DNA of 64,000 nucleotides from Aquabacterium sp. OR-4 (GTDB lineage: Bacteria > Pseudomonadota > Gammaproteobacteria > Burkholderiales > Burkholderiaceae_C). Location: NCBI RefSeq assembly GCF_025290835.2, contig NZ_JAOCQD020000001.1:248001-312000 (forward strand), read 5' to 3'. The translations under genes were made by a program, and so were the position numbers. How positions within the stretch are numbered: position 1 is the stretch's first letter; the number at the start of each line of letters is the position of its first letter. The notes beneath the pieces are model-generated. The model had not been told where the DNA came from. It saw only the letters and a program-made list of their open reading frames with translations, and ran no database searches. Below are positions 25,176 to 26,665 of the stretch, piece by piece.

Positions 25176-25245
25176 GCTTCGCGCGAAGAGAACATGTAAA
25201 CCCTTTCAGGGGTGGCCGGTGAGGCCTGTCTAGTTGGACGTTGGG

Positions 25246-25959
25246 ATGCTGCACGGGGAGTTCGCGTCGGTGCTTCAAGCCGGAACCCGTGAGGACTTCC
25301 GGGGCGAGGTGGTGCGCTTCGCGCAGCGCCTGGGCTTCGACACCGTCTCGGTGATTTCGGTGGTCGATCTGGGCATCAACCGCCTCGAGATCGAGTCGAT
25401 CGACAACGCGCCCGCCGGTTACGCCGATTCGATCAGCGACACCCGCGCCGCGCGTCGCGATCCGGTCATGCAGCACTGCCGCAAGCAGTCGGTGCCGATC
25501 GTCTGGAACCAGGACACCTACACCCGCGAAGGCCTGGGTGATCTCTGGGAAGAGCAGGCCCATTTCGGTTATTGCACCGGCATTGCGATGGCGCTGCACC
25601 TGCCGCAGGGGCGGCATTTCGCGATGGGGGTAGAGCGAGATCAGCCGCTGCCGAGCGACCGCGGCGAACTCACCCGCATCGTGGCCGATCTTCAGCTTTT
25701 TGCGGTGCACGCACTGGACGCCGCCATGCGGGTTCTGACGCCCGGCCCGGCCGTCGGCGAGCGCACGATCCTCACGCCGCGCGAGATCGAGGTGCTGCAC
25801 TGGACGATGGAAGGCAAGACGGCGTGGGAGGTTGGCGCCATCCTGGGAATCAGCGAGCGCACCGCGGTATTGCACATCAACAACGCGATGCACAAGCTCG
25901 AATGTGGCAGCAAGCACCAGGCCGTCTTGAAGGCGCTGCGCCTGGGCCTGATCGGCTGA
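25246..25959 (+). CDS. LuxR-family regulator with autoinducer-binding domain
   Basis: ~237 residues. The N-terminal autoinducer-binding domain (residues ~5-160) shows FDTVSV, YADSISDTRAARRDPVMQHCRKQSVPIVWNQ-type spacing, FGYCTGIAMALHLP and RHFAMGVERDQ. The C-terminal LuxR HTH at ~170-235 has LTPREIEVLHWTMEGKTAWEVGAILGIS and HINNAMHKLECGSKHQAVLKALRLG. It should bind an acyl-homoserine lactone or related signal and control transcription. No luxI-type synthase is visible in the window. ATG 25246 is chosen over an in-frame TTG at 25234. Confidence 0.9.
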   Translation: MLHGEFASVLQAGTREDFRGEVVRFAQRLGFDTVSVISVVDLGINRLEIESIDNAPAGYADSISDTRAARRDPVMQHCRKQSVPIVWNQDTYTREGLGDLWEEQAHFGYCTGIAMALHLPQGRHFAMGVERDQPLPSDRGELTRIVADLQLFAVHALDAAMRVLTPGPAVGERTILTPREIEVLHWTMEGKTAWEVGAILGISERTAVLHINNAMHKLECGSKHQAVLKALRLGLIG

Positions 25960-25993: not shown

Positions 25994-26009
25994 CTGTAAG
26001 ACTTGACAG
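25994..26009 (+). promoter_or_regulatory. Candidate lux box upstream of a micropeptide gene
   Basis: CTGTAAGACTTGACAG fits the LuxR/LasR operator form CT-N12-AG with outer CTGT/ACAG half-sites. It is followed by TTACCG (26010-26015), 17 nt, and TGAAAT (26033-26038), a plausible -35/-10 pair. The box centre would be at about -43 from the predicted start near 26045, the spacing of LuxR-activated luxI-type promoters. Confidence 0.55.
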
Positions 26010-26100
26010 TTACCGCCAGCCCGGACCGCTGGTGAAATTGCTCCTGAGCGCTGACGAACAGTCGCCAGCTGCCAAAGCCCAAACCTCAGGAGTGGATGCC

Positions 26101-26133
26101 ATGCAAGTTCTGCTGCCCCGTAACGCCTGGTAA
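26101..26133 (+). CDS. Predicted 10-residue micropeptide, possibly LuxR-controlled
   Basis: The ORF encodes MQVLLPRNAW and stops at TAA. AGGAG at 26088-26092 sits 8 nt before this ATG, an ideal distance; an overlapping ATG at 26096 would be only 3 nt from it and its frame runs through the terminator. The unit has its own putative lux-box promoter upstream and two hairpins downstream, the second a terminator, giving a ~175-nt transcript. The function is unknown: peptide signal, toxin-like peptide, or a translated small RNA. No downstream plus-strand gene exists that it could attenuate. Confidence 0.5.
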   Translation: MQVLLPRNAW

Positions 26134-26155
26134 GGCCAGGTTTCTAGTTTTGCTC

Positions 26156-26179
26156 CCGACCCTGTGCCCGCAGGGTCGG
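26156..26179 (+). other. Stable hairpin between the micropeptide and its terminator
   Basis: A perfect 9-bp stem CCGACCCTG/CAGGGTCGG with loop TGCCCG, just after the 10-codon ORF and 5 nt before the terminator hairpin. The pair of tandem hairpins is typical of the 3' half of structured small RNAs. Confidence 0.7.
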
Positions 26180-26184
26180 CTTCG

Positions 26185-26220
26185 CGGCCCGGATTCGTTT
26201 CCGGGCCGTTCTTGTTTTTG
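26185..26220 (+). terminator. Intrinsic terminator of the micropeptide/sRNA unit
   Basis: The 9-bp stem CGGCCCGGA/TCCGGGCCG with loop TTCGTT is followed by TTCTTGTTTTT. It closes a short transcription unit that starts after luxR. Confidence 0.88.
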
Positions 26221-26390: not shown

Positions 26391-26585
26391 TCAGCCCTTG
26401 TTCATCGGGCAGGTGTTCATGCCCACCAGGGGGTACAGCGGGCAAAAGCCCACGGCCCCGGTGAGCAGTGGCACCACGCCGATCCAGCCCCAGGCCCCCA
26501 CGGTGCCCGTGGCCGCCAGGCCCACCAGCACCAGGCCGGCGCTGATGCGAAGAATGCGGTCCATGCCGCCAACGTTCAGTTTCAT
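26391..26585 (-). CDS. DUF2892 (YgaP-type transmembrane) small protein
   Basis: 64 residues starting MKLNVGGMDRILRISAGLVLVGL, with two membrane helices at ~12-30 and ~34-50 and a Cys-containing end GFCPLYPLVGMNTCPMNKG. This is the DUF2892 domain, found alone or fused to rhodanese in YgaP. The two Cys at the membrane edge are conserved in the family. AGGAGG lies just upstream of the ATG. It lies ~80 bp downstream of the Crp/Fnr gene on the same strand; role unknown, commonly linked to sulfur or redox stress. Confidence 0.88.
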   Translation of the reverse strand: MKLNVGGMDRILRISAGLVLVGLAATGTVGAWGWIGVVPLLTGAVGFCPLYPLVGMNTCPMNKG

Positions 26586-26665
26586 GCTTCGGTCCTCCTG
26601 ACAACTCGGCCCGCGGCCGATGGGGGCACTGTGCGCCGCCAGCGGGCAGGCGTCTGTGACCAGGG

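Follow-up and report, generated by a model that had tools for sequence, protein, structure and literature searches.

Downstream of a luxR gene in Aquabacterium sp. OR-4 lies a lux-type box followed by a gene for a peptide of 10 residues, MQVLLPRNAW. This unit sits in a 64,000-nucleotide (nt) stretch of contig NZ_JAOCQD020000001.1 (positions 248,001 to 312,000 of the forward strand; RefSeq assembly GCF_025290835.2), referred to below as the window. Comparison with orthologous loci supports a short peptide as the product of this box-associated gene, and in most relatives the peptide has its own exporter. On this comparison, the 10-mer appears as a stripped-down form of longer precursors that carry a double-glycine-type leader, often repeat the core and mostly have an exporter gene next to them. 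We think it probable that the locus encodes a circuit for peptide signaling centered on a LuxR solo, in which LuxR would drive expression of the precursor and the core peptide would feed back on LuxR. To the wider proposition, that such loci represent a class of Gram-negative quorum-sensing systems in which LuxR-type receptors sense a self-encoded, C39-exported peptide and leaderless lineages use it as a private intracellular switch, we give an even chance.

Orthologous loci were collected by scanning GTDB genomes with an alignment of LuxR, and the best 80 of 324 relatives, from the Burkholderiales, were all inspected. A small open reading frame (ORF) was found in 79 of the 80 loci, 82 to 111 nt (median, 93) downstream of the first box base. 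Because the ORF picker awards points for the core motif, this count is biased toward the motif that we report, and we therefore give beside it a resampling test that applies one fixed rule to real and resampled sequence: an ATG ORF led by a Shine-Dalgarno (SD) sequence and containing PxxxW followed luxR in 68 of the 80 loci, whereas 20 first-order random resamplings of these sequences gave 0.7 on average and never more than 2. The box-SD-ORF arrangement, which the initial annotation had suggested looking for beside luxR genes of the Burkholderiales, recurs after orthologous luxR genes in nearly all of these 80. The precursors from the 79 loci are 18 to 73 residues long, the window's peptide being the shortest at 10, and 78 of the 79 are distinct. 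Most contain one to four copies of a core that usually reads xPxxxW (APKSTW and LPRGTW, for example); 73 of 81 precursors have this motif, with 38 different cores. Plain DNA similarity found matches in 2 of 99 other genomes, over the box-to-promoter part and not including the ORF. What is conserved in the ORF is the motif of the peptide rather than the DNA sequence. At the one exceptional locus among the 80, L063, the precursor frame (...TTTTTTSRTHTTTLLPKNGW) has no ATG, and a CTG after AGGA may serve as the start.

Additional samples were drawn from the genus and the family. All 21 genus genomes gave some LuxR-type match, and 16 of them yielded orthologue-like luxR matches (the window and L005 to L019, with L019 at 48% identity). 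The peptides encoded downstream of these genes include MQATHQTQTTTLLPRNGW (two genomes), MQVFTQAQAVALLPRNGW, MQAVKTVSTRPVQLPRAGW and MQVTTIQTRAQDTTQLPKGGW, together with the multicopy form MQRTTRRISTCLLPKSGWITTLLPKSGWSPCLPKSGW and another sequence in which GPRGTW occurs seven times. Three genus genomes (G003, G015 and G019) carry two LuxR-peptide pairs each, with differing endings, which we count in favor of the proposed circuit. A later set of 27 family loci (L162 to L188) had the box and ORF in 25, contributing 11 new precursors and 14 already present among the 80; L177, which is not one of the 25, proved on inspection to have the box and a precursor identical to that of L085. Within one family, receptors of this group were matched in 81 of 299 sampled genomes (E ≤ 1e-50). 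At E ≤ 1e-55, and with the window's own genome set aside, the LuxR profile had no match among 274 genomes sampled from the class, and an RsaM-like profile at 1e-12 matched 1 of 399 genomes drawn from the order, that one belonging to the window's family; these draws used strict thresholds and held few genomes of that family, so that more distant forms may have escaped them. Four further loci (L189 to L192) contain arrays of three to five luxR paralogues (one partial) at the same position, with one boxed double-glycine precursor after the luxR copy most like the window's.

An indication that the peptide is the product comes from precursors with repeated cores. An earlier analysis of the copies fixed P, [KRNA] and W; this was later relaxed to xPxxxW, which fixes P and W and leaves positions 1, 3, 4 and 5 to be counted. 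Thirty-two precursors have at least two copies (80 copies in all), and at the free positions adjacent copies within a precursor differ by 75 synonymous and 3 nonsynonymous changes, the latter in L068 (two) and L018 (one). Random pairs taken across different precursors were 24% identical, 13% synonymous and 63% nonsynonymous. The nearly exclusive synonymous change between copies implies that the short peptide is what is selected, and we conclude from these codon comparisons that the core is under coding selection; the initial annotation had named conservation at the codon level as a way to check the ORF. That cores are alike within precursors and diverse between them is what would be expected of a specific signal. 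Outside the xPxxxW pattern, the L091 precursor has TPRGGGW once and TPRGGSW four times. Among 20 chosen pairs of related species, the cores were mostly identical and the rest of the precursor changed more, as in L103-L112 (12/12 core identities versus 30/51 in the rest) and L100-L105 (24/24 versus 28/42). Exceptions to this trend included L093-L094 (4/6 versus 41/47), L083-L097 (5/6 versus 44/46) and L058-L070 (5/6 versus 41/44), and one pair, L061-L081, has no xPxxxW.

These substitutions also bear on the idea that the unit is a regulatory RNA or an attenuator leader peptide in which the ORF is incidental. The RNA from 26045 to 26220 has a stable predicted fold (z = −2.69), hairpins resembling a terminator and a short ORF, all of which would suit such a role. 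However, an incidental ORF does not account for core copies that differ almost solely by synonymous changes, and no plus-strand gene that could be attenuated was recognized, the next gene of a known family lying at 26391 to 26603 on the minus strand, as the initial annotation had maintained. A search of the window against Rfam returned no family. We consider a purely RNA-level function very improbable. The same annotation had named a signal, an inhibitor or a dual-function RNA as possible roles; recurrence beside orthologous luxR genes and synonymous core change support the peptide as the product, and the dual-function RNA is not needed.

In 67 of the 80 precursors, the core is preceded by a double-glycine-type leader with an ...LxxVxGG-like end (GA in 4), and these 67 contain one (33 precursors), two (23), three (1), four (4) or no (6) copies of xPxxxW. 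The calls were made with a regular expression that pooled GA with GG endings; L089 was recoded by hand, and L063 was scored as leaderless. The L088 precursor, MQNQKQVSPSQTLSNDKLAAPREIDASLLHLVSGG-APKSTW-GAQILSTQ-APKSTW, illustrates the arrangement, its operon consisting of an RsaM-like gene on the opposite strand, luxR, the box, the precursor gene, and genes for an HlyD-family adaptor and a C39-peptidase ATP-binding cassette (ABC) transporter, as identified with Pfam. Across the 77 loci with at least 3.9 kb of downstream sequence, 56 have both a leader and an adjacent C39-ABC gene, 8 have the leader only and 13 have neither; the exporter never occurs on its own (Fisher P = 1.1e-9, with no correction for relatedness).

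Double-glycine leaders and C39-ABC export are typical of bacteriocins, and the diversity of cores between species would likewise suit a secreted antimicrobial or toxin-like (microcin-like) peptide made under LuxR control, the cleaved core of which hits other cells. The L100-type leader does resemble bacteriocin and lanthipeptide leaders, below the cutoff (best score, 16 bits versus 32; E = 0.01). Against this, the core is very short and is kept in lineages that have neither leader nor adjacent exporter, and none of five precursors exceeded an NCBIfam cutoff and none of four matched Pfam. Furthermore, in the L088 operon, in which the genes up to the exporter were read, the precursor alone occupies the space from luxR to the exporter genes, leaving no immunity or maturation gene there. 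An antimicrobial role therefore seems unlikely to us.

The window's precursor has no GG leader. No C39 match was found near its locus, and the sole match in that genome is a truncated HlyB-like C39-ABC frame of 462 amino acids (L153, 1597 to 2985, minus strand) ~1.28 Mb away, in which we saw by eye no catalytic Q...C motif. A C39 match was present in 22 of 24 named relatives chosen from the 80 loci, and both of those lacking one are leaderless. Within the genus, 9 of 21 genomes have any C39 match; among the 16 that bear the luxR gene, 11 have none, 3 (G000, G006 and G015) have weak matches, and 2 (G003 and G014) have strong ones. When mapped onto the LuxR tree, the leaderless state requires six changes, three of them forced by well-supported branches; long branches near the root leave the ancestral leader state unfixed by the tree. 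The leaderless groups include the window's (11 rows with support of 91/82, 10 of which stand at 99/91), L091 with L106, two further genus genomes, and L068. Since leaderless forms in several places on the tree keep the box and, mostly, the core, the core seems useful even where there is no adjoining exporter. The leader and neighboring exporter are absent from the window's lineage while the core, box, promoter, luxR and rsaM-like gene are kept, which suggests that MQVLLPRNAW probably acts inside the cell, with LuxR its nearest candidate target.

Persistence of the core in lineages with no adjacent exporter is accounted for by the main rival explanation, a feedback inhibitor, in which the LuxR-controlled peptide binds LuxR or the RsaM-like protein and switches the system off. 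The gene layout would be identical. PatS-derived peptides inhibit HetR, and solved complexes of LuxR-type proteins with small protein inhibitors exist (LasR-Aqs1 and a TraR antiactivation complex were among our structure matches). The existence of multiple core copies and, in most relatives, of a dedicated exporter nevertheless points to release of the peptide more than to a purely internal inhibitor, and we regard inhibition as doubtful.

The receptor itself matched both the autoinducer-binding domain (Autoind_bind, PF03472; E = 5e-24) and GerE (PF00196; E = 7e-17) above the cutoffs, and its predicted structure (mean predicted local distance difference test score, 82) was closest to those of QscR, RhlR, LasR and SdiA. 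A LuxI profile found no match in the window's genome or the six other genus genomes included in a search of 40 genomes. Five of the 40 were positive (2 of 19 named relatives, with one of the two matches partial, and 3 genomes from other families of the order), showing that the LuxI model works. A separate search of 21 genus genomes found luxI in none, although its positive control was silent there. By these searches the window's LuxR would be classed as a LuxR solo, with no cognate luxI found in its genome. We also rejected a luxI-deletion remnant as the origin of MQVLLPRNAW, as orthologues keep a full short ORF with a like ending and the genus has no luxI match.

We next consider LasR residues Y56, W60, Y64, D73 and W88, which we take to be positions that contact the acyl-homoserine lactone (AHL). 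Among 83 LuxR sequences, the Y56 equivalent is never Y, the W60 equivalent is Y or F in 81, and the Y64 equivalent is Y in 17; the D73 equivalent is kept in 82 and that of W88 in all 83. The changes at Y56, at W60 and in most cases at Y64 would fit a ligand other than an AHL. In 72 sequences, distance between cores was weakly correlated with distance between LuxR ligand-binding domains when the DNA-binding domain was controlled for (partial r = 0.13, permutation P = 0.01) and not with DNA-binding-domain distance under the reverse control (r = −0.03, P = 0.67).

A divergent RsaM-like homologue is encoded beside luxR in 80 of 80 loci. The window's protein scored 22.6 bits against PF16245 (E = 1.1e-4; Pfam cutoff, 25), 4 of 16 orthologues matched that family at E ≤ 0.001, and a profile of the 16 matched structure 4o2h (BCAM1869) with E = 0.0011.

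The CT-N12-AG palindrome that had been noticed after luxR is present and recurs downstream of orthologous luxR genes, with at least 14 positions of the 16-base consensus matched in 70 of the 80 loci. It had also been placed at class II activator spacing from a −35/−10 pair. No consensus pair with 16- to 18-nt spacing was found at the locus, which gave no promoter-like sites; what stands is a conserved −10-like element, TGAAAT, starting 39 nt beyond the first box base; TNN[AC]AT occurs at the identical offset in 80 of 81 sequences (the 80 loci and the window). The box would thus occupy the −35 position, as in class II activation.

The window's 6.6-Mb genome contains a single exact match to CCTGTNAGANNTGACAG. 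Allowing two mismatches adds three sites, versus four for a reversed-pattern control, so there is no excess; the window holds three sites at up to three mismatches versus 0.84 expected, a weak enrichment, and the exact site alone is at issue. In 28 other genome entries (two of them the same genome), the strict box was found 15 times in 12 entries, 12 times at the luxR-micropeptide locus and 3 times elsewhere; variant boxes escape the strict form, as shown by the 16 entries without any site. The three off-locus sites, in two Ideonella genomes, have no related small ORF. We therefore rejected a broad box regulon. As nearly all strict sites are at this locus, the circuit looks largely self-contained, within the limits of a form that misses variants.

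This distribution is pertinent to a further explanation, that the peptide is an output effector of the regulon acting on another cellular target while LuxR senses an unrelated ligand, such as a foreign AHL or a metabolite. Conservation of the D73 and W88 equivalents would agree with it, and in phages, small proteins under the control of LuxR proteins inactivate a repressor, according to the available part of PMC10432266. The concentration of box sites at the locus, both in the window's genome and elsewhere, is more in line with a self-contained loop than with a broad regulon, and we judge an effector role quite improbable.

Taken together, these results lead us to favor a peptide-signal circuit that would work as follows. 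LuxR would bind the lux-type box and activate the promoter of the small precursor gene. In most relatives, the double-glycine-type leader would route the precursor to the dedicated C39-peptidase ABC exporter and its HlyD partner, and removal of the leader and further cutting would free short C-terminal peptides, usually xPxxxW. The released peptides would feed back on LuxR, directly or after reuptake, and the RsaM-like protein would modulate the circuit. In the window's lineage, MQVLLPRNAW would act inside the cell as a ligand or coeffector of its own LuxR. That the signal would be sensed by the same LuxR is suggested by the gene order, cores that are identical within but differ between precursors, the lack of luxI, the altered ligand contacts and the precedent of PipR (see below). 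The gene order, the spacing of box and −10 element, coding selection on the core, the joint absence of leader and neighboring exporter and the lack of luxI in the window's genome come directly from sequence comparison. Activation of the promoter by LuxR, the role of the peptide as a ligand, the sign of the feedback, processing and reuptake are steps that we infer.

Several observations weigh against this circuit. The correlation between cores and ligand-binding domains is weak, and shared ancestry was only partly controlled. Of the 81 precursors, 8 lack xPxxxW, and at L165 neither box nor core is recognizable, although luxR and the rsaM-like gene are present. Eight of 64 leader-bearing loci have no adjacent C39-ABC gene; in two of these, a C39 domain is matched weakly at 422 nt (L100) and 608 nt (L105) beyond luxR, and genome-wide searches of five of the eight found C39 matches in all five genomes. 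Leaderless G003 and G014 have their strong C39 matches somewhere in the genome, so that a leaderless peptide could still be exported. Without export, the leaderless form could hardly be an intercellular signal, and the leader-bearing and leaderless forms may therefore differ in function.

If correct, the proposed circuit would join textbook AHL-type LuxR receptors with peptide pheromones in the Gram-positive style and would supply a ligand candidate for a receptor group matched in 81 of the 299 sampled family genomes. It would also offer a series of related receptor-peptide pairs with different cores, useful for the study of specificity, and the repeated absence of leader and exporter beside a kept core would make a shift from outside to inside signaling directly testable.

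The closest precedent is PipR of Pseudomonas sp. GM79, a LuxR solo reported to respond to a peptide in vivo; Ser-His-Ser is active at high concentration, and an ABC importer is required (PMC4981722, available part). PipR activates a flanking gene, as we propose for the LuxR studied here, but the available part of that source describes no self-encoded precursor or exporter, whereas here the peptide gene adjoins luxR and a C39 exporter is present in most relatives. The pairing of rsaM with a luxR solo is topology type 6 of a review seen in part (PMC10710839), in which the words "peptide" and "ABC transporter" do not occur; the gene after luxR is new here.

The locus resembles LuxI/LuxR systems in the autoinducer-binding and GerE domains of its receptor and in the lux-type box before a putative signal gene, and it differs from them in that no cognate luxI was found and most AHL-contact positions are changed. 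The RRNPP systems of Firmicutes have an intracellular receptor and a mature signal of ~5 to 8 residues. There too the receptor gene adjoins a short propeptide gene (PMC10075063, available part), but the RRNPP receptor is a tetratricopeptide repeat protein rather than a LuxR protein, and the leader here is double glycine or absent. With C39-exported double-glycine peptides, most relatives share the GG leader (GA in 4 of 67) and adjacent C39-ABC and HlyD genes; the window's lineage has neither, and the core is short, often repeated and tied to a LuxR box. In the cyanobacterial PatS-HetR system, a very short peptide with a conserved C-terminal core is encoded beside its regulatory circuit, and its known sign is inhibition. 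The regulator there is unrelated to LuxR (PatS is named in the available part of PMC10986499). Finally, in phages a LuxR-type factor controls a neighboring small ORF, but the small protein inactivates the phage repressor, LuxR needs C4-homoserine lactone and an XRE partner, and the small ORF is counteroriented (156 nt in one case), according to the available part of PMC10432266.

The available parts of two surveys of LuxR solos (PMC10134790 and PMC4357305) do not mention a self-encoded peptide. In the literature searched, which left most subscription journals outside its coverage, we found no description of a LuxR solo accompanied by a peptide gene of the double-glycine or leaderless type, in keeping with the statement of the initial annotation that no system of this form was known. 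With such coverage, novelty of the peptide family is likely, not proven.

The elements of the window's locus are listed in Table 1.

Table 1. Elements of the luxR-micropeptide locus, with positions in the window
Element	Position	Strand	Basis
RsaM-like gene, DUF4902-related, 176 amino acids	24645..25175	-	Divergent from luxR; profile matches
Second lux-type box-like site, ATGTAAACCCTTTCAG	25194..25209		Between rsaM-like gene and luxR; seen directly
luxR solo (putative)	25246..25959	+	PF03472 and PF00196 matches; predicted fold
lux-type box, CTGTAAGACTTGACAG	25994..26009	+	Single exact CCTGTNAGANNTGACAG site in genome; orthologue consensus
−10-like element, TGAAAT	26033..26038	+	Constant offset from box in relatives
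Shine-Dalgarno sequence, AGGAG	26088..26092	+	Read in sequence; 8 nt before ATG at 26101
Micropeptide gene, MQVLLPRNAW and TAA, core LPRNAW	26101..26133	+	Sequence; orthologues; codon test in relatives
Two 10-pair hairpins (26156-26179 and 26184-26209) and T-rich tail, likely terminator	26156..26220	+	Fold

The luxR start was placed at the ATG, in agreement with orthologues beginning MLQGG; the ORF list gives a TTG at 25234. The AGGAG and complete 10-codon ORF (ATG CAA GTT CTG CTG CCC CGT AAC GCC TGG TAA) were read as first described. The terminator had been described as a 9-bp hairpin with a T-rich stretch; hairpin and T-rich tail were found, but the hairpin next to the tail, followed by TTCTTGTTTTT, has 10 pairs, and there is a second hairpin upstream of it. 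A seven-pair hairpin (26125 to 26141) covers the end of the micropeptide gene, overlapping its stop codon.

Sites similar to ATGTAAACCCTTTCAG were seen by eye upstream of luxR in 13 loci (weaker in L100; in L048 the counterpart is cut by the edge of the stretch viewed), and a strict regular expression found them in 12 of 80, so that support is weaker than for the downstream box. The second site suggests that the rsaM-like gene and luxR may share the same control.

SD-led micropeptides of another kind occur after more distant LuxR genes. No such micropeptide follows luxR in L117 (on a contig shared with L199), and a tblastn search of phage records with the L119 LuxR gave no match at E ≤ 1e-15. 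At seven loci, five on contigs from a viral collection (L114, L115, L116, L119 and L197) and two on chromosomes (L193 and L194), the ORF lies 100 to 123 nt after the luxR stop codon and encodes a short hydrophobic stretch with an LG[LI]P-type or LPRTGGGG-type ending (MHSFFDAFLELLGIPYGGG, MSFFELIAELLGLPYVGGN and MSLFDLLLEALGLPRNGG). These distant loci may possibly represent a phage-borne LuxR-peptide switch.
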